A stretch of DNA of 59,638 bases, taken from NCBI GenBank assembly GCA_021325365.1, contig JAJPHF010000160.1:1-59638 (forward strand). Direction: 5' to 3'. This stretch comes from Pseudomonadota bacterium (lineage in GTDB: Bacteria > Chloroflexota > UBA6077 > JAJPHF01). How positions within the stretch are numbered: position 1 is the stretch's first letter; the number at the start of each line of letters is the position of its first letter. A program made the translations under genes and the position numbers. Shown here in pieces: positions 10,352-49,736 of this stretch. The notes beneath the pieces are model-generated. The model was not told the DNA's origin, searched no databases, and was given only the letters and a program-made list of their open reading frames with translations.

Positions 10352-10366
10352 AAGCGCGATGCCGGC

Positions 10367-26350: not shown

Positions 26351-27467
26351 AGCCGCCGAGCGGCGCGCGAGCGAGGAGCTGCGCCTGGCGCTGCCCAGCA
26401 AGGGCATGGAAGATGCCACGGTGAGCTTCCTCGCGGCCTGCGGCCTGAGCGTCGATCGCAGCAACCCGCGCCAGTACCGGGCGGCGCTCCGCACCCCGGC
26501 CGGCGTGACGGTGATCTTCCAGCGCGCCGCCGACATCTTCGAGAAGGTGGACGAGGGCAGCGTCGACCTGGGCATCACGGGCTACGACATCGTGCGCGAG
26601 CACGAGCACGAGGAGGGCACCGTCGAGGTGCTGTACCCCGAGCTGGGCTACGGGCGCTGCCAGCTCGTGCTCGCCGTGCCCGACGCCTGGCTCGACGTGA
26701 AGAGCATCGCCGACCTGGCGGAAGTGGCCACGCAGCTCCGCGCGAAGGGCGGCGAGCTGCGCGTGGCGACCAAGTACGCCAACCTAACGCGCCACTTCCT
26801 CTACGAGCACGGCATCAACTACTTCAACATCGTGAGCAGCCAGGGCGCGCTGGAGGCGGCGCCGACGATGGGCTACGGCGACATCGTGGCCGACCTGATG
26901 ACGAGCGGCGTGACGCTGCGCGAGAACCGCCTGAAGACGATCGCCGGCGGGACGATCCTGCGCTCCGAGGCCTGCCTCATCGGCAACCGCCGCGCGCTGG
27001 CCGCCAGCGACGCGAAGCTGCAACGGACGCGGGCCATCCTGGAGCTGATCGAGGCCTACCTGCGCGGCCGCAACTACGCGAGCATCACCGCGAACGTGAG
27101 CGGCGAGTCCGAGGAGGCGGTCGCCCGCCGCATCACCGCCCACGAGACGAGCGCGGGGCTGCGCGGCCCGACGATCGCGCGCGTGTACTCGAAGGCGGAG
27201 GGCGACCACAAGTGGTTCGCGGTCACGATCATCGCCCGCCGCGATCAGCTTCTCCCGGCCGTGGAGCAGCTTCGCAAGGCCGGCGCCGTGGACATGACCG
27301 TACAAGACCTCCACTACGTCTTCGAGCACCGCTCGTGGCACTTCGAGGCGCTGCAGCGGCAGTTGGGAAGAGCCGTCAGCCGTCAGCCGTCAGCTATCAG
27401 CCAGCAATCGCCAGCGGCCCAGGCGGGGGAGCGCCCCGTGCCCGAGGTAACCACGCCCGTCTCCTGA
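26343..27467 (+). CDS. hisG: ATP phosphoribosyltransferase, long form
   Basis: First enzyme of histidine synthesis (ATP + PRPP to phosphoribosyl-ATP). 374 residues. The catalytic part has LRLALPSKGMEDATVSFL, VDLGITGYDIVRE, the PRPP-loop-like segment EAAPTMGYGDIVADLMTSG and GGTILRSEACLI. The C-terminal domain (about 265-338: YSKAEGDHKWFAVTII, VDMTVQDLHYVFE) is the histidine-binding regulatory domain of the long, feedback-inhibited type. The last 35 residues after QRQL are Ser/Gln/Pro/Ala-rich, encoded by heptamer repeats; the stop codon itself lies in a repeat unit. Second gene of a hisZ-G-D-C operon. Confidence 0.95.
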   Translation: MARAAERRASEELRLALPSKGMEDATVSFLAACGLSVDRSNPRQYRAALRTPAGVTVIFQRAADIFEKVDEGSVDLGITGYDIVREHEHEEGTVEVLYPELGYGRCQLVLAVPDAWLDVKSIADLAEVATQLRAKGGELRVATKYANLTRHFLYEHGINYFNIVSSQGALEAAPTMGYGDIVADLMTSGVTLRENRLKTIAGGTILRSEACLIGNRRALAASDAKLQRTRAILELIEAYLRGRNYASITANVSGESEEAVARRITAHETSAGLRGPTIARVYSKAEGDHKWFAVTIIARRDQLLPAVEQLRKAGAVDMTVQDLHYVFEHRSWHFEALQRQLGRAVSRQPSAISQQSPAAQAGERPVPEVTTPVS

Positions 27468-27484
27468 CGACTGACCGCTGATAA
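27373..27484. repeat. Inverted pair of heptamer arrays at the hisG-hisD junction
   Basis: Left arm 27373-27400: CCGTCAG three times then CTATCAG. Right arm 27464-27484: CTGACGA, CTGACCG, CTGATAA. The arms are complementary in orientation and enclose a 63-base GC-rich core containing GGGGGAGCGCCCC. The left arm and core encode the hisG tail; the TGA stop (27465-27467) is in the first right unit. Confidence 0.8.
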
Positions 27485-27500
27485 CTCGCACGGAGTGCTC

Positions 27501-28853
27501 ATGAGCTTGCTGCGCGTGTACGATGGGCTAGACGCCGCGCGGAAGACGATCCTCGCCAGCCGCCGCTTCGGCGAGGTCGAGCTGCCGGAGGGGGTGCGGG
27601 CGCGCATCCGCGCCGTGTTCGGCGCCGACCTGACCGCCGAGCAGGTGGTCGCGCGGGTGATCGCCGACGTGCGCGCCGACGGCGACGAGGCCCTGCGTCG
27701 CTACGGCGAGGCGTTCGACAGCGTGGCGGTGGACACGTTCCGCGTGGACGATGCGGCGCTCGACGCCGCCGTCGCGAGCGCCCCGCCAGCCCTGGTGGAG
27801 GCGCTGGAGGTCGCGGCCCGGCGGGTCCGCGCCTTCCACGAGCGCGCCCGGCGCCAGTCGTGGCTCGACTTCCGCGGCGAGGGCGCCCTCGGCCAGCTCA
27901 TCCTGCCGCTCGACCGCGTGGGCGTCTACGCGCCCGGCGGCCGCGCCGCGTACCCCAGCTCGGTCGTTATGGCCGTCGTGCCGGCGCGGGTGGCGGGCGT
28001 GCGAGAGATCGTGGTGGCGACGCCGCCGCGCGCCGACGGCACGGTGACGCCGAGCGTGCTAGTGGCCGCGCGCGTCGCCGAGGCCGACGCCGTGTATCGC
28101 GTCGGCGGCGCGCAGGCGATCGCCGCGCTGGCCTACGGCACGGCGCAGATTCCGCGCGTCGACAAGATCGTCGGGCCGGGCAACATCTTCGTCGTGCTCG
28201 CGAAACGCGCGGTCTACGGCGTCGTCGGCACCGACGGGCTGCCCGGCCCGACCGAGACGATCGTGCTGGCCGACGATTCGGCCGAGCCCCGCGCGCTCGC
28301 CGCGGACTTGCTGGCGCAGGCCGAGCACGACCCGCTCGCCCAATCGATCCTGCTCTGCACCTCGCGCGCCTGGGCCGGGCGCGTGCAGGCCGAGCTGGCC
28401 GAGCTGCTGGCGCGGGCGCCGCGCCGCGAGGTCGCCAGCCAGGCGTTCGCGGCGCGCGGCGGCGTCGTGCTCGTGGACTCGGTGGCCGAGGCGCTCGCTT
28501 TCGCCAACGAGTACGCGCCCGAGCACCTGTGCCTGTGCGTGCGCGAGCCGTGGCAGTATCTCGGGCTGGTGCGCAACGCGGGCGGCGTGTTCGTGGGCGA
28601 GCGGTCGGTGGAGGCGCTGGGCGACTACACCGCCGGGCCGAGCCACATCATGCCGACCAGCGGGGCGGCCCGCTTCGCCTCGCCGGTCGGCATCGACGAC
28701 TTCGTGAAAGTGACGTCGGTATTCGCCTTCGGCCCGAACGACCTGGCGACCCTCGGGCCGCCGGCGATTGCGCTGGCCGAGGCCGAGGGCCTGGAAGCGC
28801 ACGCCCAGGCGATTCGCCTGCGGCTGGATAGCGAACAGGCGCGGCAGGGCTAA
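27501..28853 (+). CDS. hisD: Histidinol dehydrogenase
   Basis: Catalyses the last two oxidations, L-histidinol to histidine, NAD- and zinc-dependent. About 450 residues from the ATG at 27501 (CGGAG upstream; a GTG at 27495 is the alternative). Motifs in order: RVGVYAPGGRAAYPSSVVM, VGPGNIFVVLAKRAVYG, GPTETIVLADDSA, zinc and catalytic region LAQAEHDPLAQSILL, FANEYAPEHLCL, and VEALGDYTAGPSHIMPTSG with the catalytic His. Length and motif order are normal. Third gene of the his operon. Confidence 0.96.
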   Translation: MSLLRVYDGLDAARKTILASRRFGEVELPEGVRARIRAVFGADLTAEQVVARVIADVRADGDEALRRYGEAFDSVAVDTFRVDDAALDAAVASAPPALVEALEVAARRVRAFHERARRQSWLDFRGEGALGQLILPLDRVGVYAPGGRAAYPSSVVMAVVPARVAGVREIVVATPPRADGTVTPSVLVAARVAEADAVYRVGGAQAIAALAYGTAQIPRVDKIVGPGNIFVVLAKRAVYGVVGTDGLPGPTETIVLADDSAEPRALAADLLAQAEHDPLAQSILLCTSRAWAGRVQAELAELLARAPRREVASQAFAARGGVVLVDSVAEALAFANEYAPEHLCLCVREPWQYLGLVRNAGGVFVGERSVEALGDYTAGPSHIMPTSGAARFASPVGIDDFVKVTSVFAFGPNDLATLGPPAIALAEAEGLEAHAQAIRLRLDSEQARQG

Positions 28854-28882
28854 GGGACGGTGCCCTGATCAAGGAGAACGAG

Positions 28883-29992
28883 ATGAGCGTGAAACCGCGG
28901 GCGACGCCGCAACTGGTGCGGCCGGTGATCGCCGACATTCAGCCCTACGTGCCGGCCGAGACCGAGGAGGTGCTGGCCCAGCGGTCCGGCCTACCCGTCG
29001 AGCGCCTGGTCAAGCTCGACGCCAACGAGAACCTCTACGGTCCGTCGCCCCGCGTCCGGGCGGCCCTCGGCGCCTACGATCGCCACCAGATCTACCCCGA
29101 CCCCGAGCAGGTCGCGACCCGCGAGGCCGCGGCCGCATACTACGGCGTGCCGGCCGAGAATGTGCTGCTGGGCGCCGGGTCGGACGAGTATATCCACCTG
29201 CTGACGATGGTCTATCTGGACCCGGGCGACGAGGTAATCGACTTCAGCCCGAGCTTCGCCATGTACCCGATCTACTCGGGGCTGATGGGCGGCCGCATGG
29301 TCTACGTCCCGCGCAACGAGCAGTTCGCGATCGACGTGGACGCCGGGCTGCGCGCCGTGACCGACCGCACCAAGCTCATCTTCGTCGCGACGCCGAACAA
29401 CCCGACCGCGACCGCGACGCCGCGCGCCGCCATCGAGCGCCTGCTGGAGACGGGCCGCATCGTCGTCGTGGACGAGGCCTACGCGGAGTTCACCAACCAG
29501 ACAATGGTGCGCGACGTGCTGGAGCACGAGAACCTGATCGTGCTGCGGACGTTCAGCAAATGGGCGGGGCTGGCCGGCTTCCGCGCCGGCGCCGTCGTCG
29601 CGCAGGAGAGCGTGCTGCAGCACCTGTGGAAGATCAAGAGCCCGTTCAACCTCAGCGTGCCGGCGGGCATCGCCGTGCGCGAGTCGCTGAAGGACCTCGA
29701 CTACGTCCAGGACTGTGTGCGGAGGATCGTCGCCGAGCGAGCGCGCATGGCGGCTGCTCTCGCCGAGCTGGACTGGCTGCGCGTCTACCCCTCTGAGGGC
29801 AATTTCCTGTACGTCGAGGTCACGCGCGGCAGCGCCCGCGACGTCCGCGAGCGCTTGGTCGTGGAACACGGCATCTCGGTGCGTCACTTCGGCGGCCCGC
29901 CGCGGATCGTGCAGGGCCTCCGCATTACCGTCGGCAAGCCCGAGCACACCGATCTGCTGGTAAGCGCCCTGCGAGCCGTCGCGCCGGCGTGA
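28883..29992 (+). CDS. hisC: Histidinol-phosphate aminotransferase
   Basis: PLP enzyme making L-histidinol phosphate from imidazole acetol phosphate and glutamate. 369 residues; AAGGAGAACG directly precedes the ATG. Typical type I fold: KLDANENLYGPSPRVRAAL, IYPDPEQVATREAAAAYYG, GAGSDEYIHLL, VATPNNPTATATP, VVDEAYAEF, and PLP-binding Lys226 in RTFSKWAGLAGFRAG. The C-terminal FLYVEVTRGSARDVRERL and ITVGKPEHTDLL complete the domain. Last gene of the local his operon, followed by a hairpin terminator. Confidence 0.95.
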   Translation: MSVKPRATPQLVRPVIADIQPYVPAETEEVLAQRSGLPVERLVKLDANENLYGPSPRVRAALGAYDRHQIYPDPEQVATREAAAAYYGVPAENVLLGAGSDEYIHLLTMVYLDPGDEVIDFSPSFAMYPIYSGLMGGRMVYVPRNEQFAIDVDAGLRAVTDRTKLIFVATPNNPTATATPRAAIERLLETGRIVVVDEAYAEFTNQTMVRDVLEHENLIVLRTFSKWAGLAGFRAGAVVAQESVLQHLWKIKSPFNLSVPAGIAVRESLKDLDYVQDCVRRIVAERARMAAALAELDWLRVYPSEGNFLYVEVTRGSARDVRERLVVEHGISVRHFGGPPRIVQGLRITVGKPEHTDLLVSALRAVAPA

Positions 29993-30051
29993 CCCACCCC
30001 CCCGGCCCCGCTCTCGCTGCGGGGAGGGGAGAGGACGAGGCCGGGGTGGCT

Positions 30052-30078
30052 CCCCCCTTCCTTCCGAGGGAAGGGGGG
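30052..30078. terminator. Bidirectional hairpin terminator between hisC and a convergent gene
   Basis: CCCCCCTTCC (30052-30061) pairs with GGAAGGGGGG (30069-30078), 10 perfect pairs with a 7-base loop, 60 bases after the hisC stop and 8 before the end of the convergent gene. There is no long T-run on either strand. Confidence 0.55.
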
Positions 30079-30085
30079 CCGGGGG

Positions 30086-31645
30086 TTAGGTCCCCCTCCG
30101 GTACACCACCACGTCCCCCTGCTCGAACACTGGCTGCCAGGCGGGCGAGCGCGCCACGGCTTCCACCAGGCCTGGCTGGCCGGTGCGGCTCAGCACCAAT
30201 TGGCCGACGCCGTAGCCCGCGAGGCGCGCGTCCCACCCCGGCTCGGCCGCGCTAATGCGCGCGTAGTCGTCGAAGACCTCGGGGCGGTAGGCCTCGTAGC
30301 GGCCGTCCACGAAGATGCGCTGGCTTGGTCCGAGGCGCCAGGCCAGATAGCCGCCCCAGGCGATGTAATGAAAGACGTGCCCGGCGCGCGCGTCGGGCAG
30401 TACCAGGTCGGCGGCCGCGGCGAGCGGCGACGGCTCGACGACGGCCCGGGCCTCGGGCGCGAGTCCCGGCAGCCGCGCGCGCCACCACGGCAGCGAGCCC
30501 ACCGCCAGCACGAGCGTCAGGCCCAGCAGGAGCCGGTTGAGGGCGGGGCGGCCGGGCGGCGCGGGACCGGCTGGCTTGCCGACGAGCGCGCGCTGGAGTA
30601 GGCCGGCGAGCGGCGCCGGCAGCACCAGCCCCCACCAGACGATCGCCCGGATCCACCGCAGCGCCAGCCAGGCGAACGTCAGCAGCCGCGCCGCCTCCGC
30701 CGTCCCGAGCCCGAACGCCGCGCGCGGGCGGCCCGTGCGCCAGCGGGCGTTGACGTACAGCACGAGCAGCAGCACGACGAGCGAGACGAAGAACGGCACC
30801 CCGCCCGGCGTCGCCAGGCTCGTCGGCAGCCACTCGGTCAGCAGGCCGCCAAGCTGGCGGTGGCCGGGCGACACGGTGAGCAGGCTGCGGAGGTACTCCA
30901 GCGCGCGGAGCCCGTGGGGGCTCACCAGCGGTGCCAGACTGCTCGCTACCAGCACGCCCCCCAGCCGCCGCAGCCCGCCGTTGGCGACGATGCGTCCCCC
31001 AGCCCCGGCGGCCAGCAGGTCCAGCAGCTGGCCGACGAGGGCCAGGGCCACCAGCCCGAGACCCAGCAAGAATGAGCCGTGGACGTTCGCCCAGAACACC
31101 ATGACGAGTGGGAGCGCGTAGAGCGCGGCGCCAGTACGGCACGGTCGGCGCGTCGCCTCGAGGTAGAGCACGAACGGCACAAGCGCGAAGAGCTGGGGGC
31201 GGAGCGCCAGCCCAACGTTGACTAGGGGCAGCGCTAGCACGGTGCACAGGCCGGCCACGGCGGGAACAGCCCCGGCGCGACGACACCCCACGTATAGCAG
31301 CCCAAATACCACGGCCACAATAGCCGCGCGGAGCACCACGAGCAAGGCGAAGCCGCCGAGCAAGTAGGTCCCATACAGTAGCACATCTGCTAGCCATTGC
31401 CCCTGGATATAGGCACCAGGCGCGGGAGTGTAGGCAAGCGGCTCGGCGCTTGGCAGCGCGCCCGCCTGCCATACGGCGCGGCCCAGGGCTAGCGACCACC
31501 ACAGGTCGCCATCGTCCACTTGCAGCGTGGCGAAGCTCAGCACGATGAACGGGTACGCCGCCGCGAGCGCGACCCATACGACGTCGAGAGCGACAAGCGC
31601 AGGCCGCCGCTTACTCAGCGCCCGGCTACGGAGGCTCACAATCAT
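30086..31645 (-). CDS. Polytopic GT-C-like membrane protein, WW type (paralogue A)
   Basis: 519 residues with about ten membrane segments and a soluble C-terminal domain. The first extracytoplasmic loop has DDGDLWWSLALGRAVWQAG, then AEPLAYT; later VFWANVHGSFLLGLGLVAL and the tail LAWRLGPSQRIFVDGRYEAY. The layout (acidic motif in loop 1, many helices, periplasmic tail) resembles GT-C glycosyltransferases that use polyprenyl-phosphate sugars, but no characterised family is recognised with confidence. The protein at 33332-34954 has the same motifs in the same places, so the two are paralogues. Confidence 0.7.
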   Translation of the reverse strand: MIVSLRSRALSKRRPALVALDVVWVALAAAYPFIVLSFATLQVDDGDLWWSLALGRAVWQAGALPSAEPLAYTPAPGAYIQGQWLADVLLYGTYLLGGFALLVVLRAAIVAVVFGLLYVGCRRAGAVPAVAGLCTVLALPLVNVGLALRPQLFALVPFVLYLEATRRPCRTGAALYALPLVMVFWANVHGSFLLGLGLVALALVGQLLDLLAAGAGGRIVANGGLRRLGGVLVASSLAPLVSPHGLRALEYLRSLLTVSPGHRQLGGLLTEWLPTSLATPGGVPFFVSLVVLLLVLYVNARWRTGRPRAAFGLGTAEAARLLTFAWLALRWIRAIVWWGLVLPAPLAGLLQRALVGKPAGPAPPGRPALNRLLLGLTLVLAVGSLPWWRARLPGLAPEARAVVEPSPLAAAADLVLPDARAGHVFHYIAWGGYLAWRLGPSQRIFVDGRYEAYRPEVFDDYARISAAEPGWDARLAGYGVGQLVLSRTGQPGLVEAVARSPAWQPVFEQGDVVVYRRGT

Positions 31646-31678
31646 GGGAGACTCATGCGAGCATCGCGGCGGCCAGAT

Positions 31679-33079
31679 TCACACCGGTAGGTCCCCTGTC
31701 GTACTGAAACCGCCTAGCGTCTGACCGGTGCTCGCTTCGCTGTCTATGGCCGGCACGGTGGCGGCGGAAGGTTCGAGGCAACTACGGACCAGTAGGGCCC
31801 ACAACAGAATGAGCCCAACCAGTGGGCCGCAGCTCAGCAGGTTGCCCCAGCCGTAGCGCCAGGGAAGCGCTGCCAGCGGCACCAGAGGAAAGTAACTCTG
31901 GCACCATTGCTCCGGCCCCAGATCGCAGTACTCGACGGGCAGGCTCAGCAGCAGACCCACCCACAACAGCCATCGCAAGTGCCCCGGCCAGGTCGCTTGA
32001 ACGTATGCCGCGGCTGCCACGAGCCCCACTAGCGCGATCATGAGATTGTAATGACCGTTGATCGGAGACAGCAGTAAGCTGGCTACGACTACCATCGCGT
32101 AGGCGCGCGACCGGCTCTGGCGAGCCGCTCGCGCGCGCCATACTGCATAGGCGCTTGCGCCGAGAATCCCCGCCGCACACAGCGCGGTGAGGCCAGCCGC
32201 CAGTGCTTCGGCGGAGACAACAGGCGTGGTGAACGCATTGTCGCTAAGCAACCGTGTGAAAAAGCCTACGATTGACACGTTGGACGGCATACCGTACCAG
32301 TAATGCAGCGTGGCCACGACGGCGGTCAGGTACTCGCGGTGCGGCTCCCATCCCAGCACCGCTACGGAGGCCGCGAGCTCGAGCAGCGCTAGCAGCGCCG
32401 TGCTGACGCAGGCCTGGTAGCGGCGGCCCAGAACGAGATAGAGTCCCAGCAGCGCGGGGAACCCCTTGAGGCCCGCTGCTACCGCCACGGCGGCTCCAAG
32501 CAGAACCGGGCGGCCTGCCCTGATGGCGGCGTAGCCCGCGGCGACGACGAGCAGCAGGATGGGGCTGAGCTGGCCGATACCTAGCGCTACGACAACCGAT
32601 GGCAGCACGCCGATACAGGGCACCAGCGCCAGCAGCCGGCGCCCGCGCAAGTGCAGATCACTCGCGCGCCAGGTCAGCCCTACTCCGCCAGCCAGGCAGA
32701 CCACCCCAAGGAAGAGCCATGACCAGCGGGCCGCGGGATAGTCGAGCAGACGCGTGAAGGGCGCGAGCAGCAGCGCCAGCAACGGTGGATAGAAGTAATC
32801 GGCATTGGGCGTAGCATATGGACGGTTCTCGGCCAGCCACTCATAAGGGCTGTGGCCATCGGCAACGCTCCTGGCGCCATTCCAATACGAGGTGAAGTCG
32901 TCGCCAACGGCGATCGATCCGCTGATCGTGGCGTGGATCCGCACAGCATTCACGGCGAGGAGGGTAATCCCGAGCGCGCCGCCGCCAATCAGCATCGCCC
33001 AGCGGCCCCAGCGTTCTGCGCCGCGTTCGCCGGGTAGCCCTAGCGCCGTCGGACCAGCATAGCATTTGGGGGTTGCCAT
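31679..33079 (-). CDS. GT87/DUF2029-type membrane glycosyltransferase, copy 1
   Basis: 466 residues, about eleven membrane segments. Loop 1 carries GDDFTSYWNGARSVADGHSP, then YEWLAENRPY and YFYPPLLALLLAPFTRLLDY. GT87 members such as mycobacterial PimE transfer sugars from polyprenol phosphate, and an Asp in this loop is needed in PimE; by analogy the GDDF acid is the candidate. The mid-protein STALLALLELAASVAVLGWE and the tail LPVEYCDLG, then ALPWRYGWGNLLSCGPL, recur in the copies at 38571, 40081 and 41391. Donor and acceptor are unknown. Confidence 0.8.
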   Translation of the reverse strand: MATPKCYAGPTALGLPGERGAERWGRWAMLIGGGALGITLLAVNAVRIHATISGSIAVGDDFTSYWNGARSVADGHSPYEWLAENRPYATPNADYFYPPLLALLLAPFTRLLDYPAARWSWLFLGVVCLAGGVGLTWRASDLHLRGRRLLALVPCIGVLPSVVVALGIGQLSPILLLVVAAGYAAIRAGRPVLLGAAVAVAAGLKGFPALLGLYLVLGRRYQACVSTALLALLELAASVAVLGWEPHREYLTAVVATLHYWYGMPSNVSIVGFFTRLLSDNAFTTPVVSAEALAAGLTALCAAGILGASAYAVWRARAARQSRSRAYAMVVVASLLLSPINGHYNLMIALVGLVAAAAYVQATWPGHLRWLLWVGLLLSLPVEYCDLGPEQWCQSYFPLVPLAALPWRYGWGNLLSCGPLVGLILLWALLVRSCLEPSAATVPAIDSEASTGQTLGGFSTTGDLPV

Positions 33080-33331
33080 AGCGATCGGTACTCCCGCCGG
33101 GATTGCCCTCGCTGCGATGATAGCAAGTCGCCTGCATGCTCCGGTCGCCGTTTGAGCGCTTCGAAGTGCAGAGTGGGTGAAGAGCGCCGCGCAGGCTCTC
33201 CGTGTGTCCCCGGGCCACCGTAACGTCGTTCGGCACCGCCTTCAGCGCCAGGACCGTCCGTCCACCGGGCCGCGTGCTATCCTCCCGCCGGCAGTTGCGT
33301 CGCACACCACTCAACCGGCTAGTTGGCCAGC

Positions 33332-34954: not shown

Positions 34955-35034
34955 CCTCGCCCCTCCTAGGTGGCCGCAATCCGGCCAGGCGTGTGGGCGG
35001 CGAACGAGTGCTGATCGCGCTAGCTTAGGCCCCA

Positions 35035-41391: not shown

Positions 41392-42806
41392 TAGGCCAGC
41401 TCCCCACGTGCCCGCGGCGCCCGGCCGGCCAGCAAGCCAGCCGCGTCCCCCGCCGGACACACGCCCGACACTCGGCGCTGACCGGCACGTTGCAGGCTAA
41501 GCCGCAGCACCAGCGCCCAGAGCGCGATCAGGCCGCAGAACGGTCCGTCCAGCAGGAGGTTGCCCCAACCCTGCCGCCAGAACAGTTCGGTCACCGGCAC
41601 CTGCGCCCCTTGCTCCAGATACCACGCCCGAACGGGCGCAAGCTCGCCAAATTCGACCGGCAGCGCCAGCAGTAGGGATGCGATGAGAAGCCAGCGCAGG
41701 CCGCGCGGCCAGTCAGCTTGGACGCGCGCGGCGGCCGCGGTGAGCGGGATGATGGCCAGGATCAGGTTCCCGTTGCCGTTGATCGGCGACACGAGTAGCA
41801 TGGCCGTCACCGCCAGCCCGAAGCCCAGCGACTCGCTTTCCCAGTCGGCCGGCAGCCGCCAGACGGCGCATGCCGTCGCCGCGAGCAGCGCGGCGGCCGC
41901 CAGCGCGATGGAGGCCGGCGCTATGACCGGCGCGGCGGCGACTGGCGTCGTGAACGGGTTCTCGCTCAGCAGGCGCGTCACCACACCCGTGAGCGAGACG
42001 TTCGACGTCGCCCCGAACCAGAAGCGCTGCGCCGGGACGACGCCACTCAGGTAGCGCCAGTGTGCCTCCCAGCCTAGGGCCAGCAGCGTCCAGGTCAGCA
42101 GCGCTATCCCCGTGGCCGCCACGCCCAGGCAGGCGCGCCATCGGCCGCGCAGCAGCAAATACACCGCGAGCAATGCCGGGAACGACTTCGAGTAGCCCGC
42201 CAGCGCGACGAGGCCGCCCGCCACTAGCGGCCGCCCCGCCCGCAAGCTAGCATAGGCGCCCGCGACCGCGAGGAGCAGCATCGGACTGAGCGTGCCGGCG
42301 GCCAGGGCCGAGACGAGCGACGGCCAGAGCCCAATCAGCGCCGCGCAGGCGAGAGCGCTCACCCCCCGCGCGCGGAGGCCGCTCGTACGCCACACCAGCG
42401 CGACGCTCACCGCGACAAACGCCGCGCCGAGCGCCAGCCAGAGCCAGCGCGCCGTGGGGTAGTCGACCACCCGAGTCAGTGGCGCAAGCAGCAGCGCCAG
42501 CGGCGGCGGGTAGATGTAGTCGGCCGTCTCTTGATGGCGGGCCGTGCTGACCCACGCGTAGGGATCCTGGCCTGCCGCAACTGCGGCCGCGCCGTTCCAG
42601 TAGGGGGTGAAGTCATCGCCATCGGCCAGCTGGCTCGCCACCAGGCCAACGACCCGCACGGTGCCCAGGCCGACCAGCAGGACCGCCGCCGCGAGCAGCA
42701 GGCCGCGCCCCCAGATGGCGAGCCAGCGCGCGCACAGCGCCCGCGCCCTGCCGCGCCCCCCGAACCCGGCTGCCGCCACGCTGCTCTCCGCCCCCCCCCC
42801 GCTCAC
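41391..42806 (-). CDS. GT87/DUF2029-type membrane glycosyltransferase, copy 4, with G10 tract at its start
   Basis: 471 residues from GTG 42806. Codons 3-6 lie in a run of ten G (plus-strand C, 42791-42800). A second in-frame GTG at 42779 has GGAG 6-7 bases upstream and may be the real start, putting the tract in the leader. Loop 1 GDDFTPYWNGAAAVAAGQDP, YAWVSTARHQE, YIYPPPLALLLAPLTRVVDY; middle ALAAGTLSPMLLLAVAGAYA and YSKSFPALLAVYLLLRGRW; tail LPVEFGELA, LFWRQGWGNLLLDGPFCGL. First gene of the copy 4 - copy 3 transcription unit, with TATGAT immediately upstream. Confidence 0.82.
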   Translation of the reverse strand: MSGGGAESSVAAAGFGGRGRARALCARWLAIWGRGLLLAAAVLLVGLGTVRVVGLVASQLADGDDFTPYWNGAAAVAAGQDPYAWVSTARHQETADYIYPPPLALLLAPLTRVVDYPTARWLWLALGAAFVAVSVALVWRTSGLRARGVSALACAALIGLWPSLVSALAAGTLSPMLLLAVAGAYASLRAGRPLVAGGLVALAGYSKSFPALLAVYLLLRGRWRACLGVAATGIALLTWTLLALGWEAHWRYLSGVVPAQRFWFGATSNVSLTGVVTRLLSENPFTTPVAAAPVIAPASIALAAAALLAATACAVWRLPADWESESLGFGLAVTAMLLVSPINGNGNLILAIIPLTAAAARVQADWPRGLRWLLIASLLLALPVEFGELAPVRAWYLEQGAQVPVTELFWRQGWGNLLLDGPFCGLIALWALVLRLSLQRAGQRRVSGVCPAGDAAGLLAGRAPRARGELA

Positions 42807-42814
42807 TCGCCGGC

Positions 42815-42820
42815 ATCATA
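42815..42820 (-). promoter_or_regulatory. -10 element (TATGAT) next to the GT87 copy 4 start
   Basis: Minus-strand TATGAT at 42820-42815 lies 9 bases before GTG 42806, so transcription from it would be leaderless for that GTG or give a short leader, including the G10 tract, for GTG 42779. No good -35 was found. Confidence 0.45.
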
Positions 42821-43064
42821 CCAGGAGCGGTGAATTATCAGCCGCGCCGAGCCCTCCCCCGGCGGTTCAGAGTGAGTGAAGCATCGCCGCCCACGACCCC
42901 GTTGCCACCGCCGGCCCGCCAGCGTACATAATGTCCTGCGCCTCTCCACAAGCGGCCAGCGGCTGGCCGCGAGCAATTCGCGCATGTTGGGCACACACCC
43001 CTTCTTGCCTACTACATGTTGTGTCTTGAGGCGTGCTGGGAGCGCGCCTGGCTCCGTTTGGCGG

Positions 43065-43094
43065 TTGATCCGACCCTTCGCGGTCTGGTATCGT
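43065..43094 (+). promoter_or_regulatory. Promoter of the purine operon
   Basis: TTGATC (43065-43070), an 18-base spacer, TATCGT (43089-43094). Transcription would start near 43101, leaving a leader of about 220 bases before guaB3, which contains the hairpin at 43147-43207. Confidence 0.45.
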
Positions 43095-43146
43095 AAGAGC
43101 AATGGCGGCGACACTTGGGCCAGCCGCCGACGGTTTCCGGGTAACG

Positions 43147-43207
43147 ATGGCTCAGCGACCTTGCGGCCGCTCTCGAGCGCGCTGGAGTCGGTGTCTGAGC
43201 CATTTTT
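43147..43207 (+). promoter_or_regulatory. Attenuator-like hairpin with T-run in the guaB3 leader
   Basis: ATGGCTCAG (43147-43155) pairs with CTGAGCCAT (43195-43203); the T-run TTTTT (43203-43207) follows directly. The 39 bases between can fold further. A hairpin plus T-run in the leader of a purine operon, 110 bases before the start codon, suggests conditional termination. I found no recognisable purine or guanidine aptamer upstream. Confidence 0.5.
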
Positions 43208-43318
43208 GTAACCAGCCCCGACCAGGACGTCAGTGGTCAGCGGCGAGCCGTCGGCTCGGTGGTCGGTCCCTCGGATCGCCGCGGGCTCGGGCGCTGATCG
43301 CTCGCTGGGGAGGTGCAG

Positions 43319-44497
43319 ATGGCCACAGAGCAGCTTACGTCCACGGTCGCGGACATGCACGTAAGCGGGAGCGCACGGCTGCGCCCCGCTTACGGTTTTG
43401 ATGACGTAGCGCTGGTGCCCGGCGCGCTGACGATCGATCCCGACGACGTGGACATTTCCTGGCAGGTCGGCCCTCACCGGTTCGCGTTGCCCGTGGTCGC
43501 CTCGGCCATGGATGGCGTGGTCGATCCCGCCTTTGCGATTGCCCTCGGCCGGCTCAGCGGCCTGGCCGTCCTCAACCTCGACGGTTTGCAGACCCGCTAC
43601 GACGACCCGGCCGAGCCGCTGGCGAAGATCGCCGCGGCGCCCGCTGAGCAGGCCACCGCCCTGCTACAAGACCTCTACCGCGCGCCCGTGCGCAACGACC
43701 TCATCAAGCGCCGTGTCGAGGAGATCAAGGCCGGCGGCGTGATCGCGGCCGTTTCGGCCACCCCGGCCAACGCCGCCGCCTATGGCCGCATCGCGGTGGA
43801 CGCGGGCGTGGACATCTTCGTGGTGCAGGCGACCGTAACGGCGGCGCAGCACCGCTCCCGCGCGCAGACGCACCTGTCGCTGCGCGACTTCTGCCGCTGG
43901 ATGCCGGTCCCGGTGATCGTAGGCAACTGCGTGGCCTACTCCGCCGCCCTGGAGCTGATGGAGACGGGCATCGCCGCCCTGCTGGTCGGCGTCGGCCCCG
44001 GCGCCGCCTGCACCAGCCGCGAGGTGCTGGGCGTGGGCGTGCCGCAGGTCACCGCCACGCTGGACTGCGCGATGGCCCGCCGCGATTACCGCGCGCAGAC
44101 CGGCCGCTACGTACCGATCATCACCGACGGCGGCATGCGCACCGGCGGTGACATCGCCAAGGCTATCGCCTCCGGCTCCGACGCCGTGATGCTGGGCTCG
44201 CCGTTCGCCCAGACCCAGGAGGCGCCCGGCAAGGGCCACCACTGGGGCATGGCGACGCCGCACCCGGGCCTCCCGCGCGGCACGCGCATCAAGGTCGGCG
44301 TCCAGGGCTCGCTGGAGCAGCTGCTGTTCGGCCCCACGTCCCGCACCGACGGCACCCAGAACCTGATGGGCGCGCTGCGCACGTCGATGGGCGTGCTCGG
44401 CGCGGCGAATCTCGGCGAGATGCACGCCGTGGACATGGTCATCGCGCCGTCGATCAAGACCGAGGGCAAGCTCTGGCAGCTCGCCCGGGCATTCTAG
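43319..44497 (+). CDS. guaB3: GuaB3 family IMP dehydrogenase-related protein
   Basis: 392 residues from the ATG at 43319 (GGGGAGG, 6 bases). Core: [60 protein letters not shown], the catalytic loop [20 protein letters not shown] with Cys231 (GAACTSR in place of the usual GSICTTR), and [20 protein letters not shown]. There is no CBS pair, and the length is that of the GuaB3 group found in Actinobacteria, Cyanobacteria and Chloroflexota. A GuaB3 enzyme with IMP dehydrogenase activity is known from cyanobacteria; here the step IMP to XMP is inferred, supported by guaA directly downstream. Confidence 0.9.
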
Positions 44498-44502
44498 CGA
44501 GC

Positions 44503-44638
44503 GGTCAGCTATCAGCTGTCAGCTTTTAGCCGTCAGCTTTCAGCCGAAGGTCGCGGCGCTGCGCTCAGCTGATAGCTAACGGCTGATCGCTGAAAGCTGA
44601 TCGCTGACGGCTGATAGCTAACACACTGAGGGCTGATG
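44503..44638. repeat. Inverted pair of heptamer arrays between guaB3 and guaA
   Basis: Left arm 44503-44544, six units: GGTCAGC, TATCAGC, TGTCAGC, TTTTAGC, CGTCAGC, TTTCAGC. Right arm 44568-44623, eight units: GCTGATA, GCTAACG, GCTGATC, GCTGAAA, GCTGATC, GCTGACG, GCTGATA, GCTAACA. A separate unit GCTGATG at 44632-44638 contains the guaA ATG. Arms are complementary, 23-base GC core. The RNA could form a long imperfect stem. Confidence 0.85.
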
Positions 44639-46354
44639 GCAAACAACTCGCAGGATACCGACACCGAAAGCACTGCCCGCCCTGGCGGCGACTCGCACCG
44701 CGTGGCCGTCAGCGGCGACATCGAGGTTTCGACTTACCTGGAGATTGGCGGCGCGCGCGCCGGCGGCGCGGCCGAGCGCGCCGCGGTCGCCACCGCCCCA
44801 CCCGAGCCGCCCACGCCGCGCGATGCCATCGCGATCCTCGACTTCGGCTCGCAGTACAGCCAGCTCATCGCCCGCCGCGTGCGCGAGAACCAGGTATACT
44901 GCGAGCTGCTGCCGCACGACGTGGACGAGGCGCGGGTGCGGGCGCTCAACCCGCGCGGCTTCATCCTGAGCGGCGGCCCGGCCAGCGTCTACGCCAAGGA
45001 TGCGCCGCGTCTGCCACCTTTCCTGTTCCGCCTGAACCGGCCCATCCTCGGCATCTGCTACGGCATGCAGCTCATGGCCCACGAGCTGGGCGGCGCCGTG
45101 GCGGCCAGCGACAAGCGCGAGTACGGCCACGCGCTGGTCAGCGCCGATCCGCCCGTCTCGCCGCTGTTCGCCGACCTGCCCGAGGAGTTCCCCGTCTGGA
45201 TGAGCCACGGCGACGCCATCACGGAGCTGCCGGCGGGCTTCCGCGCCATCGCGCACAGCGACAACTCGCCGGTAGCCGCGATGGGCAACGAGCGCGGCTG
45301 GATCGGGCTGCAGTTCCATCCGGAGGTCGCGCACACGCCGAACGGCAAGCAGCTCCTGGCGAACTTCCTGTTCAAGGTGTGCGGCTGCCAGCCCACCTGG
45401 ACGCCCGGCTCCTACGTCGACGAGGCCGTGGCCGCCATTCGCCAGCGGGTGGGCGACGGCAAGGTGATCTGCGCCCTGTCGGGCGGCGTGGACTCTGCGG
45501 TGGCGGCCACGCTCATCCACCGCGCCGTGGGCGACCAGCTCACCTGCATCTTCGTGAACAACGGGCTCCTGCGCCGCGACGAGGCCGAGCGCAGCCTCAC
45601 GGCGTTCGAGCGCCACCTGCACCTGAACGTGATCTACGTGGACGCCACGGAGCGCTTCCTGACGCGGCTGGCGGGCGTCACCGACCCCGAGCAGAAGCGC
45701 CAGATCATCGGCGACGAGTTCATCCACGTCTTCGCCGACGAGGCCCGGCCGCTCGGCAAGATCGACTTCCTGGCGCAGGGCACGCTCTACCCGGACGTGA
45801 TCGAGAGCAAGACGGCCGACACCAAGGCCGCCGCGCGCATCAAGACGCACCACAACGTGGGCGGCCTGCCCGACTGGCTGCCGTTCCGCCTGGTCGAGCC
45901 GCTGCGCTACCTGTTCAAGGACGAGGTGCGCCAGGTCGGCGCGGCGCTCGGCCTGCCCGACGACGTGCTCTGGCGCCAGCCGTTCCCCGGCCCCGGCCTG
46001 GCGATCCGCATCCTGGGCGAGGTGACGGCCGAGCGGCTGGACATGCTGCGCGCCGCCGACTGGATCGTCGTGAACGAGATCAAGAAGGCGGGGTTGTATC
46101 ATCGCGTATGGCAGAGCTTCGCGGTGCTGACGCCGCTGCGGACGGTCGGCGTGATGGGCGATGGCCGCACCTACGCCAACGTCGTCGCGGTGCGGATCGT
46201 GCAGAGTGACGATGGGATGACCGCCGACTGGGCGCGCGTGCCCTACGACCTGCTCGCGCGCATCTCGACGCGCATCGTGAACGAGGTGCCCGGCGTGAAC
46301 CGCGTGGTCTACGACATCAGCTCCAAGCCCCCCTCCACGATCGAGTGGGAGTAG
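44636..46354 (+). CDS. guaA: GMP synthase (glutamine-hydrolysing)
   Basis: Makes GMP from XMP, ATP and glutamine. 572 residues, about 45-60 longer than usual because of a disordered-looking N-terminus ([15 protein letters not shown]) before [20 protein letters not shown]. Amidotransferase triad: Cys141 in GICYGMQ, His228 and Glu230 in [13 protein letters not shown]-pyrophosphatase P-loop [16 protein letters not shown] near 277-292; substrate region [20 protein letters not shown]; end PPSTIEWE, as in all GuaA. The ATG is inside a heptamer unit (GCTGATG), with GAGG only 4 bases upstream, so initiation context is poor. Second gene of the purine run. Confidence 0.96.
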
Positions 46355-46363
46355 CCATGGTAA

Positions 46364-46488
46364 CCGTCAACCGTCAGCCGTCAGCTATCAGCAGCGCGAC
46401 TCCTGGCGACGCACGCGACCACCGCCCGGCGCTGGAGCGCCCAGCGCCGTCCCGCCGTCTGCTGACGGCGGAAAGCTGACGGCTGATG
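46364..46488. repeat. Inverted pair of heptamer arrays between guaA and purD
   Basis: Left arm 46364-46391: CCGTCAA, CCGTCAG, CCGTCAG, CTATCAG. Right arm 46461-46488: GCTGACG, a degenerate unit GCGGAAA, GCTGACG, GCTGATG. The core contains the palindrome-like GGCGCTGGAGCGCCCAGCGCC-type sequence near 46429-46447. The last unit holds the purD ATG. Confidence 0.8.
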
Positions 46489-48294
46489 GCTCGTCCGAAG
46501 ATCCTGGTCGTCGGCGGCGGCGCCCGCGAGCACGCCCTGCTGTGGAAGCTCGCCCAGAGCCCCACGCGCCCCACGCTGTACTGCGCGCCGGGCAACGCCG
46601 GCACGGCCGCGCTGGCCGAGAACGTGCCGATCGGCGCCGAGGACGTGTCGGCGCTGGTGCGCTGGGTGGCGGAGCACCCCGTCGACCTGACGATCGTCGG
46701 GCCGGAGGCGCCGCTGGTGGCCGGCCTGGCCGACACGCTGGCCGCCCGCGGCCTGGCCGTCTTCGGGCCGTCCCGGGCCGCGGCCGAGATCGAGGCGAGC
46801 AAGGCCTGGGCGAAAGACCTCATGCAGCGCCACGGCATCCCCACCGCGCGCTTTGTCGTGGCGACCGACCGCGACGCGGCGCGGCGGGCGCTGGACGCGT
46901 TCGGCCTGCCGGTCGTCGTGAAGGCTGACGGACTGGCCGCCGGCAAGGGCGTGACGGTGGCGCAGACGCGCGCCGCGGCCGAGGCGGCGATCGACGCCTG
47001 CCTGGTCGAGCGCGCGTTCGGCGCGGCCGGCGAGCGCGTGCTGATCGAGGAGTGCCTGGAAGGCCAGGAGCTATCGGTCCTGGCGTTCGCGGACGGCCAG
47101 ACCGTCGTGCCGATGGTGCCGGCCCGCGACTACAAGCGCGTGGGCGACGACGACACGGGGCCGAACACGGGCGGCATGGGCGCTTACGCCCCGCCCGCGC
47201 TGGCGACGCCGGCGCTCATGGCCCGGGTACAGCGCGAGATCCTGGAGCCAACGCTGGCCGCGCTCGCGGCTGCAGGGCGGCCCTACCGCGGCCTGCTCTA
47301 CGCCGGGCTTATGCTGACGGCCGACGGGCCGAAGGTGCTGGAGTTCAACTGCCGCTTCGGCGACCCCGAGACGCAGGTGGTGCTCCCACTGCTGGAGAGC
47401 GACCTCGTCGAGGTCGCCCAGGCGGTCGTGCAGGGCCATCTCGACGAGATTGCCGTGCGCTGGCGGGATGCGACCTGCTGCGGCGTGGTGCTGGCCGCGG
47501 GTGGCTACCCGGGCAACTATGCGACGGGCCAGCCGATTCAGGGGCTCGACGCGCTGCCCGCGGACGTATTGGTCTTCCATGCGGGGACGCGGGCGGCCGC
47601 GGGGCAAGTGGTGACGGCTGGGGGGCGAGTGCTGACGGTGACAGCCGTGGCGCCCACGCTGGCGGCGGCGCGGGCGCGCGCCTACGCGGGGGCGGCAGCG
47701 ATTCAGTTCGAGGGCGCACACTACCGCCGCGACGTGGCGGCACGGGAGGTTGCGATGCCTGCGATGGCCGGAGGGGCCGACGACACGAAGCCGCTGGTCG
47801 GCATCATCATGGGCAGTGAGAGCGACCGGCAGGTAATGCAGAATTGCGCGGACACGCTGGCGGCGCTCGGCGTGCCGCACGAGATGCTCGTCATGTCAGC
47901 CCACCGCACGCCGGAGCGCGTGGGCGAGTACGGCCGCGGCGCGGTCGAGCGCGGGCTGCGCGTCATCATCGCGGGTGCGGGCATGGCCGCGCACCTGCCG
48001 GGCGTCCTGGCGTCGTGGACGACGCTGCCGGTGATCGGCGTGCCGCTCGCCGCCGGCGACCTGCGCGGCCTCGACGCGCTCTACGCCATCGTCCAGATGC
48101 CGCCCGGCGTGCCCGTCGCCACCGTCGGCATCGGCAGCGCCGGCGCGCGCAACGCCGCCTACCTGGCCGCCGCGATCATCGGCCAGGGCGACGCGGGCGT
48201 GCGCGAGCGCTACGAGGCCTTCCGCCGCCAGCAGTCGCAGGGCGCGGCCGCCACTGCTAGCCCCCCGCCGGCCGGGGGAGCGAGCCGGGGCTAG
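46486..48294 (+). CDS. purD: Fused PurD-PurE: phosphoribosylamine-glycine ligase + N5-CAIR mutase
   Basis: 602 residues. Residues 1-about 420 are PurD, an ATP-grasp enzyme making GAR: KILVVGGGAREHALLWKL, TIVGPEAPLVAGLADTLA, VKADGLAAGKGVTVAQT, NTGGMGAYAPP, LEFNCRFGDPETQVVLPLL. Residues about 434-585 are PurE class I, converting N5-CAIR to CAIR: VGIIMGSESDRQVM, VMSAHRTPERV, IAGAGMAAHLPGVLASWT, QMPPGVPVATVGIG. They are joined by a short linker. Inside it, ATG 47755 (codon 424) has GGGAGG 5 bases upstream, so free PurE may also be made. The main start lacks a ribosome site and lies in a heptamer unit. No purK is present in the window. Confidence 0.93.
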   Translation: MARPKILVVGGGAREHALLWKLAQSPTRPTLYCAPGNAGTAALAENVPIGAEDVSALVRWVAEHPVDLTIVGPEAPLVAGLADTLAARGLAVFGPSRAAAEIEASKAWAKDLMQRHGIPTARFVVATDRDAARRALDAFGLPVVVKADGLAAGKGVTVAQTRAAAEAAIDACLVERAFGAAGERVLIEECLEGQELSVLAFADGQTVVPMVPARDYKRVGDDDTGPNTGGMGAYAPPALATPALMARVQREILEPTLAALAAAGRPYRGLLYAGLMLTADGPKVLEFNCRFGDPETQVVLPLLESDLVEVAQAVVQGHLDEIAVRWRDATCCGVVLAAGGYPGNYATGQPIQGLDALPADVLVFHAGTRAAAGQVVTAGGRVLTVTAVAPTLAAARARAYAGAAAIQFEGAHYRRDVAAREVAMPAMAGGADDTKPLVGIIMGSESDRQVMQNCADTLAALGVPHEMLVMSAHRTPERVGEYGRGAVERGLRVIIAGAGMAAHLPGVLASWTTLPVIGVPLAAGDLRGLDALYAIVQMPPGVPVATVGIGSAGARNAAYLAAAIIGQGDAGVRERYEAFRRQQSQGAAATASPPPAGGASRG

Positions 48295-48305
48295 GAGCAG
48301 GGCCG

Positions 48306-49664
48306 ATGATCGAGCGCTACACCTTCCCCGAGATGAAGCGCGTCTGGTCGGAAGAGAACAAGCTCGCCAAGTGGCTGCGCGTCGAGATTCTCGCCTGCGA
48401 GGCGTGGGCCGAGCTGGGTGCCATCCCGCGGGACGACATGACCGCGATCCGCGGCGCCACCCTGAACCGCGCGCGCATGGCCGAGATCGAGGCCGAGAGC
48501 CACCACGACATGCTGTCGTTCGTCCGCGCGGTGGCCGAGAGCGTCGGCCCGGCGGGGCGCTTCATTCACCTGGGGCTCACCTCGTCCGACGTGCTGGACA
48601 CGGCGCTGGGGGCCGTGCTCGTGGAGGCCTGCGACATCCTCGCCGCCGACCTGGCGCGCGTCGAGGCGGTCCTGGCGCGGCAGGCGGTGCGCCACAAGCA
48701 CACGGTGATGGTGGGGCGCACGCACGGCATCCAGGCCGAGCCGACGACCTTCGGGCACAAGCTGGCGGTGTGGGTGGCCGAGATTCGCCGCCACCAGGCA
48801 CGCCTCGCCCGGGCACGCGAGGCGGTGGCCGTGGGCAAGATCGCGGGGGCGGTCGGCACGCACGCGAATGTGCCGCCGGCCGTCGAGGAGTACGTCTGCC
48901 GCGAGCTGGGGCTGCGGCCCGAGGAGGCCGGCACCCAGATCGTGCAGCGCGACCGCCACGCCGAGTTCGTGCTGGCGCTGGCGCTCATCGCGGCGTCGCT
49001 GGAGAAGATGGCGACGGAGCTGCGCGGCCTCCAGCGCACCGAGGTGGGCGAGGTGGCCGAGCCGTTCGCCTCGGGCCAGCAAGGCTCGTCGGCCATGCCC
49101 CACAAGCGCAACCCGGAGCTGGCCGAGCGCATCTGCGGCCTCGCGCGCGTGGTGCGCAGCGCGGCCACGCCGGCGCTGGAAGACGTCGTGCTCTGGCACG
49201 AGCGCGACATCAGCCACTCGTCGGTCGAGCGCATCATCCTGCCCGACGCCTGCCTGGCGCTCGACTACATGCTGCGCACCTTCGAGCGCGTCATGGACGG
49301 GCTCGACGTCTTTCCGGAGCGCATGCGGCGCAACCTCGACAACGCGGGCGGCCTGGTGTACTCTGGCCGCGTGCTGCTCGCGCTGGTCGAGAAGGGCCTC
49401 GGGCGGCAGGAGGCCTACGAGCTGGTGCAGCGCCACGCCAAGCAGGCCTGGGCCGACGCCGGCAACTTCCGCGAGTCGCTGGCGGCCGATCCGCGCGTGC
49501 AGGCGCGGCTCACGCCCGACGAGCTGGCGGCGCTGTTCGACCCCGCCTACCACCTGCGCGAGATCGACACGACGTTTGCGCGGTTGGGGCTAGACGAGCC
49601 GTCAGCGGCCAGCGGTCAGCCCTCCGCAGATGGAGAAGCGCTGCCCGCCGGTCGAGCGCGCTAA
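48306..49664 (+). CDS. purB: Adenylosuccinate lyase
   Basis: Cleaves SAICAR and adenylosuccinate, releasing fumarate. 452 residues; GGAGCAGGGCCG precedes the ATG. Motifs: MIERYTFPEMKRVWSEENKL at the N-terminus, ESHHDMLSFVRAV, HLGLTSSDVLDTALG, VGRTHGIQAEPTTFGHKLAV, and the superfamily signature SSAMPHKRNPELAE near residue 260 with the mobile serine loop. The last 20 residues after RLGLDEP are Ser/Ala/Pro-rich and come from a heptamer array. It starts 11 bases after the PurD-PurE stop, so the two are one transcription unit. Confidence 0.96.
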   Translation: MIERYTFPEMKRVWSEENKLAKWLRVEILACEAWAELGAIPRDDMTAIRGATLNRARMAEIEAESHHDMLSFVRAVAESVGPAGRFIHLGLTSSDVLDTALGAVLVEACDILAADLARVEAVLARQAVRHKHTVMVGRTHGIQAEPTTFGHKLAVWVAEIRRHQARLARAREAVAVGKIAGAVGTHANVPPAVEEYVCRELGLRPEEAGTQIVQRDRHAEFVLALALIAASLEKMATELRGLQRTEVGEVAEPFASGQQGSSAMPHKRNPELAERICGLARVVRSAATPALEDVVLWHERDISHSSVERIILPDACLALDYMLRTFERVMDGLDVFPERMRRNLDNAGGLVYSGRVLLALVEKGLGRQEAYELVQRHAKQAWADAGNFRESLAADPRVQARLTPDELAALFDPAYHLREIDTTFARLGLDEPSAASGQPSADGEALPAGRAR

Positions 49665-49736
49665 CCCGCGGACTGCCTGCTGATAGCTGCGAGCTGACCG
49701 CTGATAGCTGATAGCTAATTTGCTGGGGAGTTGATG
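49600..49736. repeat. Inverted pair of heptamer arrays at the purB-purC junction
   Basis: Left arm 49600-49620: CGTCAGC, GGCCAGC, GGTCAGC, inside the purB 3' end. Right arm 49679-49720: GCTGATA, GCTGCGA, GCTGACC, GCTGATA, GCTGATA, GCTAATT. A related GTTGATG at 49730-49736 contains the purC ATG. The core is 58 bases and holds the purB stop. Confidence 0.8.

Follow-up and report, generated by a model that had tools for sequence, protein, structure and literature searches.

The window analysed here is contig JAJPHF010000160.1 (assembly GCA_021325365.1) at its full length of 59,638 nt, a stretch with a GC content of 71% that carries hisG and hisD and, further on, guaB3, guaA, a purD-purE fusion, purB and purC (Table 1). 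At four of the junctions between these genes (hisG-hisD, guaB3-guaA, guaA-purD and purB-purC), an earlier interpretation made from the letters of the same DNA, the sequence-only reading, had placed rows of TCAGCNN heptads that face rows of GCTGANN heptads across a core, and all four structures, designated elements A to D, were found in the sequence. Three of the four were facing pairs when at least two exact in-phase units were required in each arm, and no facing pair appeared in 400 shuffled windows (200 of Markov order 2 and 200 of order 4). The architecture stood as described, with two corrections: the hisG and purB frames contain the left arms of elements A and D, respectively, and the gene taken for purD is the purD-purE fusion. 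The junction between this fusion and purB, with 11 nt, is too short for an element. The twenty best matches of the window GuaA (63–70%) came from metagenome-assembled genomes (MAGs) that bear the labels Chloroflexi, Chloroflexota or Dehalococcoidia and kin, which places the window in a Chloroflexota genome.

Table 1. Genes and heptad arrays of the window, and pairs of a second facing family in genome G001. Units in elements A to D were counted with at most one mismatch in the pentamer.
Feature	Sequence	Position	Strand	Description
One-armed array	window	10328–10353	+	4 units: GCTGA, GCTGA, GCTGC, GCTAA (two exact)
hisG	window	26343–27467	+	TIGR00070, TIGR03455
Element A (hisG-hisD), left arm	window	27371–27401	+	half unit AGC and 4 exact TCAGC units (27376–27401); within hisG frame
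Element A, core	window	27402–27462	+	61 nt, GC-rich
Element A, right arm	window	27463–27481	+	3 units: CCTGA, ACTGA, GCTGA
hisD	window	27501–28853	+	TIGR00069; start from simple gene finder
guaB3	window	43319–44497	+	TIGR01304; start from simple gene finder
Element B (guaB3-guaA), left arm	window	44505–44544	+	6 units, one of them TTAGC
Element B, core	window	44545–44567	+	23 nt
Element B, right arm	window	44568–44621	+	8 units, two of them GCTAA
guaA	window	44636–46354	+	NF000848
Element C (guaA-purD), left arm	window	46367–46392	+	4 units: TCAAC and 3 TCAGC
Element C, core	window	46393–46460	+	68 nt; internal hairpin GGCGCTGGAGCGCCCAGCGCC
Element C, right arm	window	46461–46486	+	4 units: GCTGA, GCGGA, GCTGA, GCTGA
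purD-purE fusion	window	46486–48294	+	TIGR00877 and TIGR01162
purB	window	48306–49664	+	TIGR00928, residues 1–427 of 452
Element D (purB-purC), left arm	window	49602–49627	+	4 units: TCAGC, CCAGC, TCAGC, TCCGC; within purB frame
Element D, core	window	49628–49678	+	51 nt (58 nt if counted from exact units); contains purB stop TAA (49662–49664)
Element D, right arm	window	49679–49718	+	6 units; purC ATG (49734) 15 nt further on
purC	window	49734–50651	+	NF010568; start from simple gene finder
GGGTANN..TACCCNN pair	L132	11517–11587
GGGTANN..TACCCNN pair	L138	19692–19789
GGGTANN..TACCCNN pair	L143	12720–12784
GGGTANN..TACCCNN pair	L145	9545–9626

In element A, the hisG stop codon is the TGA (27465–27467) of the first right-arm unit, and this arm holds a single exact GCTGA; the left arm of element D has two exact units. 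The family match of HisG stops at residue 326 of 374, the residues beyond it being translated from the left arm of element A and from its core, and the PurB tail beyond its family match is likewise the translated left arm of element D. Since the left arms in the window are free of stop codons in the incoming reading frame, they can extend into the end of a gene. Such read-through, which lengthens HisG, PurB and a phage head protein described below (L333), is relevant to annotation. The left arm of element B begins 7 nt past the guaB3 stop codon TAG (44495–44497), and the last A of the right arm of element C doubles as the first base of the ATG that starts purD (46486–46488). The one-armed array lies 13 nt from the stop codon of a minus-strand gene (10367–11533), and no facing arm with two exact units was seen beside it. 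At gathering score, Rfam matched nothing at the elements, its sole match in the whole window being a tRNA gene (8087–8158, minus strand).

The description of the unit as a fixed GCTGA with two drifting letters, set in facing arrays, was borne out. Here, facing matches were defined as three TCAGCNN followed by three GCTGANN units within 15–45 nt, with nested matches counted. A scan for facing arrays, as had been proposed, gave 253 such matches in 15 of 24 array-carrying genomes and none in the opposite order in those 24. In 370 kb of genome G016 (G and L numbers are our labels for genomes and loci), arrays of at least two units numbered 22 for GCTGA and 23 for TCAGC; array neighbours were facing in 16 cases, opposite in none and in the same direction in four, and three shuffles of this DNA yielded 2–5 arrays and no neighbours. 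Furthermore, 38 of its 40 in-phase triples of any pentamer were TCAGC or GCTGA. In G159 (L166–L168), 25 of 26 arrays pointed one way, amid other repeated intergenic sequences (CGTCATTGCGAG.. and GTAGGGGTCGGCC..); in view of this shared direction, an integron-like arrangement was considered for this genome.

Arms of four units were the commonest. Among 30 Desulfobacterota copies found via their core, independently of the arms, 18 left and 11 right arms had four units, and four-unit arms made up 20 of 43 in G016, 16 of 28 in G181, 14 of 29 in G159 and 44 of 70 in phage; G001 peaked at five units, and arrays reached 11. Across the same 30 copies, the innermost right-arm unit had identical pentamer letters in 150 of 150 cases and identical spacer letters in 36 of 60, the next unit scored 147/150 and 34/60, and the outer units decayed. 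The pentamer is thus constant where pairing alone would let it change, which points to a reader of the sequence, and recognition of the heptad sequence fits these counts better than mere pairing.

The 7-base periodicity, on which the sequence-only reading depended, stood out over other periods. In 1.87 Mb of loci, many of them fetched because of GCTGA arrays, arrays of any pentamer with an inverted partner numbered 47 at period 7, 39 being GCTGA, and 1, 5, 6, 2, 0 and 0 at periods 6, 8, 9, 10, 11 and 12 (pentamers with fewer than three different letters were excluded from such pentamer-free scans and from the comparison of the window with its shuffles).

With regard to placement, the arrays were neither scattered at random nor typical of gene interiors: in seven sample sets, 90 of 99 clusters had their midpoint between genes, whereas coding sequence makes up about 81% of the DNA sampled from G016 and G001. 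This count draws partly on stretches picked for holding arrays, and its genes come from a simple custom finder, which also set the gene borders in relatives and phage contigs; picked in this way were the stretches of G181, G159, G065, G148, G079, G083, G426 and G578, part of those of G016 and G001, and the first G467/G505 set. By type of gap, 58 clusters were co-directional, 14 convergent and 11 divergent, gaps of at least 60 nt numbering 370, 75 and 115, respectively. The distance to the stop codon in co-directional clusters was 3–13 nt in 10 of 13 cases in G016 and 6–13 nt in 9 of 12 in G001 (clusters at edges or with their midpoint in a gene are excluded from the distances). The distance to the start codon was usually larger, and the preference was weak in G159 and G065. 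Clusters were closer to the stop than to the start in G016, G001 and the window (mean ratio 0.28, p 0.003, n = 27) and in four other sets (mean ratio 0.38, p 0.045, n = 30).

The junctions of metabolic operons are not a property of the element, as had been supposed from the window, given that relatives have copies at many kinds of gene border. The link with his and pur genes failed similarly, with elements found beside a tRNA-Val gene, at a distance of 11 nt, and within the head gene of a phage. The former case lies in G016 (L120 17428–17499), where two right-arm arrays end at that distance from the 3' end of the tRNA gene (17511–17587, minus strand); a similar tRNA neighbour at the end of L121 (17974–18053) is truncated by the contig end and was uncalled.

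The distribution among genomes was patchy. Scans for exact GCTGANN units repeated four times were positive in 48 of the 393 genomes in the class to which G016 belongs (345 were without an exact four-unit array), in 22 of 118 genomes of the phylum of a Desulforhabdus genome (here termed Desulfobacterota), in 13 of 119 of the phylum of a Planctomycetes genome (termed Planctomycetota) and in one of 14 mixed genomes. With three repeats, 8 of the 40 genomes of the first loci were positive, as were 5 of 20 relatives of G016, itself included, the other 15 being empty; G016 and two others of these 20 carried 49–135 hits. The pattern read backwards was absent from most carriers, with exceptions in G012, G083, G155, G277 and others, and G038 had backward hits only. 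Among 80 GuaA loci, an array of two exact units was present in three (L006, L018 and L023), and only L023 had an array of at least three units and a facing pair, located behind purC. In particular, the orthologous junctions retrieved from relatives (12 guaA-purD, 6 guaB3-guaA and 10 purB-purC) were all without a GCTGA array and often much shorter than those of the window, with exceptions such as guaA-purD in L002. At an orthologous guaB3-guaA junction, L013 bears a row of another heptad, AGTCGNN, that begins right at the stop codon of guaB3 (433–460).

Several observations bear on dispersal. The 26 aligned copies of G016 extend from AGC to GCT around a core of C-tract and G-tract, and conservation falls off outside; AGC was present in 19 and GCT in 24 of the 26 borders, with little in common beyond them. 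One G016 element had 25 further copies within the sampled stretches, at 71–80% local identity including the core. Copies in G467, G505 and G541 have in common their hairpins (CCGGAAAC..GTTTCCGG), a core rich in AT and their inverted ends (TTCATCCGGAAAC / TTtCGGATGgAA), and are flanked by direct repeats of about 9 bp (a mean of 6.32 of 9 matches versus 5.35 ± 0.10 in permutations, over 56 flank pairs in which most copies were entered on both strands). Such terminal inverted repeats were found in Desulfobacterota copies only, with about 130–220 bp between the ends; the display of the ends covers the strand of 17 of 30 loci, the 13 on the other strand being left out. Furthermore, a G016 element between two convergent stop codons has an empty site in the relative G426, where the gap is 11 nt versus 100; neither the G426 nor the G423 stretch around this site contains an array, and the junction in G423 is also array-free.

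The element also occurs in phages. A scan of IMG/VR gave 72 stretches with the element at three plus three units; these stretches, chosen by the facing pattern, held 127 facing and 5 opposite neighbours. Genes for a tape measure protein, an exonuclease and a replication-initiation-like protein lie on one tailed-phage contig, IMGVR_UViG_3300045936_000120 (34,160 bp; L333, L340 and L341). Its 17-kb relative IMGVR_UViG_3300045933_000102 (L358, L362) gave matches to portal, capsid, terminase and head-morphogenesis proteins (in L362), and L333 contains frames of equal length. Arrays were present at 22 of 28 called junctions of the 34-kb contig (18 of 21 gaps of at least 60 nt) and at 16 of 19 in the relative (12 of 13 such gaps). 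Several elements of the 34-kb contig, whose neighbours were facing in 23 cases and opposite in two, share a short core like TAAACCGC. Two elements lie within the head-morphogenesis frame (L333 6317–7195), with steps that keep the frame open. Peptides of this frame (QQSAISDQP.. and QQSAISGQ..) resemble QPSAISQQ of HisG, and a peptide of this kind is a possible marker of read-through elements in proteins.

A pentamer-free scan of G001 revealed a second facing family, GGGTANN..TACCCNN, with four pairs in one order throughout (Table 1), all of which overlap a called stop codon or lie at most 2 nt from one. The idea that stop codons impose the fixed order was considered and is disfavoured by this family, in which the stop-bearing arm comes first.

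The account that we tentatively favour, and to which we give close to an even chance, is that of a repeat which is dispersed and probably mobile and which bears, at gene ends, rows of heptads bound by a protein. The architecture, polarity, constant pentamer, four-unit mode, dispersal and one empty site are observed, as are terminal repeats with flanking direct repeats in one phylum. On this account, each structure would be one copy of a non-coding repeat with the full plan of a half unit AGC, usually four TCAGCNN, a core, usually four GCTGANN and a half unit GCT; the core would measure about 2–70 nt, sometimes more, and differ between lineages; single arms also occur. The pentamer, recurring every 7 bp so that three steps make two helical turns, would form a row of predicted binding sites, one per heptad, and in a full element the two inverted rows may serve as its recognised ends. 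Copies would settle in gaps between genes, often just past a stop codon; where a copy has entered a frame at its 3' end, its left arm would lengthen the protein and its TGA-rich right arm could end it. We infer a heptad-binding protein and, in Chloroflexota, movement of the element by this protein or a linked transposase. No common core could be recognised among the window elements, and Chloroflexota copies did not show the terminal repeats of Desulfobacterota, so that it is by analogy that the window copies are probably mobile. Among the roles listed by the sequence-only reading, mobile element and protein-binding array gain indirect support, whereas translation insulation has none.

Both of these shortcomings of the window and Chloroflexota copies weigh against this account, and so do the following points. 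Nine of the 24 carriers have no facing pair of three plus three units within 15–45 nt (including G181, G159, G148, G153 and G241), and the stretches of G181, G159 and G148 show mostly single arms. The genome searches queried GCTGA, so the sameness of the pentamer across phyla is partly a matter of query choice, and other genomes carry other heptads. The two phage contigs have two opposite-order neighbours each. No target-site duplication was found at the G016 borders, where the longest shared word was 2.32 versus 2.15 ± 0.18 in permutations, and a duplication in Chloroflexota suspected by eye is therefore unsupported. Similarly, no autonomous copy was found: a 2.3-kb G016 span between two arms, tried as a candidate, contains ordinary genes only and was ruled out, and among 84 exact terminal repeats in G467, one inward-facing pair was 1–3 kb apart, both of its ends belonging to complete copies of their own (140 or 155 bp). 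The Y1 transposase domain PF01797 had no match in the array-carrying G016, G181, G159, G153 and G148 (MAGs may be incomplete). These five genomes disfavour dependence on a REP-associated tyrosine transposase (RAYT), although the domain, present in 18 of 40 genomes, was commoner in carriers (14 of 22) than in others (4 of 18).

It is possible, if rather improbable, that the structures instead act in RNA, a transcribed hairpin behind the stop codon protecting or processing the upstream mRNA or separating translation, and being kept by selection on host or phage. In line with this, three of the four window elements fold far more stably than shuffled sequences (z of −6.79 for element B at 44503–44622, and −7.35 and −3.71 for two others), while element A reached −1.74 only; the elements lie close behind stop codons, are rarer per gap between divergent genes (11/115) than between co-directional (58/370) or convergent ones (14/75), and mark most called junctions of the 34-kb phage contig. 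However, the pentamer is constant although any complementary pair would fold, and spacers of the two arms agreed, when read as complementary pairs, in 29 of 327 cases over 44 elements, against a permuted fraction of 0.113 ± 0.020, so that no covariation above chance was found. The absence of an exact four-unit array from most genomes of the class and the frequency of single arms in some genomes likewise speak against it. An apparent avoidance of complementarity between the arms (z about −3.4 in a first test) was unconfirmed in a register-free test (p about 0.1).

We regard as unlikely that the arrays are functionless microsatellites, born by slippage in tolerant DNA in the manner of simple sequence repeats (SSR) or the short tandemly repeated repetitive (STRR) sequences. 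The trait itself is present, in that 7-nt units stand head to tail and are mostly intergenic; some genomes have perfect runs (TG runs in G426, TT runs in G648), confinement between genes is expected because GCTGANN contains stop codons, and MacGregor reports 7-nt indels between Cyanothece strains (PMC4679880). Nevertheless, neighbouring units were the same in 14 and different in 207 cases over 11 sets, below the expectation from unit frequencies in most sets, which disfavours slippage as the main source; identity was 6/96 without G426 but 22/141 and not below chance with it. The four-unit mode, the fixed order (253:0) and conserved cores with constant pentamers point the same way.

A bidirectional intrinsic terminator with a stem extended by heptads is very unlikely: position on the stop-codon side and the C-tract/G-tract inner stem of G016 would suit it, but a T run directly follows the right border in just one of 26 G016 elements, and the window purine elements lie between closely spaced co-directional genes resembling one operon. 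Hardly credible, finally, is a site ahead of start codons that controls translation, the role suggested by MacGregor for TAACTGA repeats, since clusters lie nearer to stop than to start codons and also between convergent genes. In its favour, the purD start codon overlaps the right arm of element C, the right arms of B and D stop 14–15 nt short of guaA and purC, and a distance of 1 nt to the following start codon is the most frequent one for TAACTGA in BOGUAY (PMC4679880).

Set beside known systems, the preferred account of a dispersed repeat with protein-binding heptads finds likenesses of several kinds. GCTGANN arrays were not described in the titles or abstract openings among the literature matches listed. 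If one protein reads the heptads, they would constitute a cross-phylum recognition sequence without a known reader; if no single protein does so, a mobile palindrome without a known transposase. An example of how heptads may work is parS of pSM19035, whose contiguous, non-palindromic 5'-WATCACW-3' heptads are each occupied by a single dimer of the ribbon-helix-helix protein omega/ParB; full activity in ATPase stimulation takes a minimum of four heptads in a row (PMC9499535). The likeness would be one of working only, as the sequence is another, the heptads have mixed orientations and they form the centromere and promoters of one plasmid.

Repetitive extragenic palindromic (REP) sequences and REPINs, with their GTAG and CGTC palindromes (PMC3116915, PMC3733652), are likewise miniature mobile DNA made of inverted short modules, capable of forming hairpins, dispersed and mostly downstream of genes in unidirectional or convergent gaps, but they are palindromes of 20–40 bp instead of heptad rows. 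Neither a GTAG nor a CGTC tag was present at the hairpin foot, AGC/GCT, of the 26 G016 copies. Miniature inverted-repeat transposable elements (MITEs) are a general class of miniature inverted-repeat mobile elements. The Desulfobacterota copies resemble these, which are named in PMC4692102 and PMC6382973, in their inverted ends and direct repeats of about 9 bp; the Chloroflexota copies differ in having neither such ends nor, in G016, a detected duplication.

The TAACTGA direct repeats of Beggiatoaceae, Cyanobacteria and Bacteroidetes (MacGregor 2015, PMC4679880) share with GCTGANN a heptamer with CTGA, an intergenic position, a patchy occurrence across phyla and a suspected horizontal spread. 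In contrast to GCTGANN, they have a nearly exact unit and one inverted set in 170, and they stand mostly before starts in BOGUAY. The unit in our material is GCTGANN and not TAACTGA, and the BOGUAY repeat table has no TAGCTGA direct repeats.

The STRR comparison made earlier proved loose, the inverted GGGAATC heptamers of Xanthomonas (GGGANTN, with GGGGA(C/T)T in Nostoc; Rehm et al. 2015, PMC4692102) being much closer, and the facing architecture, thought to be the unusual part, has its precedent there. In Xanthomonas, four units are commonest, with 70 and 75 inverted pairs in two genomes; the heptamers are intergenic, mostly between aligned genes, on average 28 nt from the nearer gene and 0–50 bp from stop codons on the coding strand, and are rare between divergent genes. 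They were explained by G-quadruplexes and generally lack an association with insertion sequences. GCTGANN resembles them in its fixed and free positions, four-unit mode (five in G001) and inverted pairs near stops; the terminal and direct repeats of the Desulfobacterota copies are not mentioned for Xanthomonas in the accessible text of that article.

It is doubtful, but conceivable, that facing elements of four heptads form one general class that punctuates gene boundaries in bacteria and phages. The unrelated heptads GCTGANN, GGGTANN of G001 and GGGAATC of Xanthomonas would then share their period, a fixed facing order and a place at stop codons, each having its own protein stepping by 7 bp, and would be spread between phyla by phages, at least one of which marks most of its junctions in this way. 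GGGTANN has a G-tract like that of the Xanthomonas unit. GCTGANN has none and cannot form a G-quadruplex, yet it shows the same four-unit mode, inverted pairing and position at stops; the G-quadruplex account of the fours (PMC4692102) cannot hold for it, and something else must set these rules. Facing heptads are a kind of repeat known from Xanthomonas, and GCTGANN differs from the unit there in its sequence and in having no G-tract.

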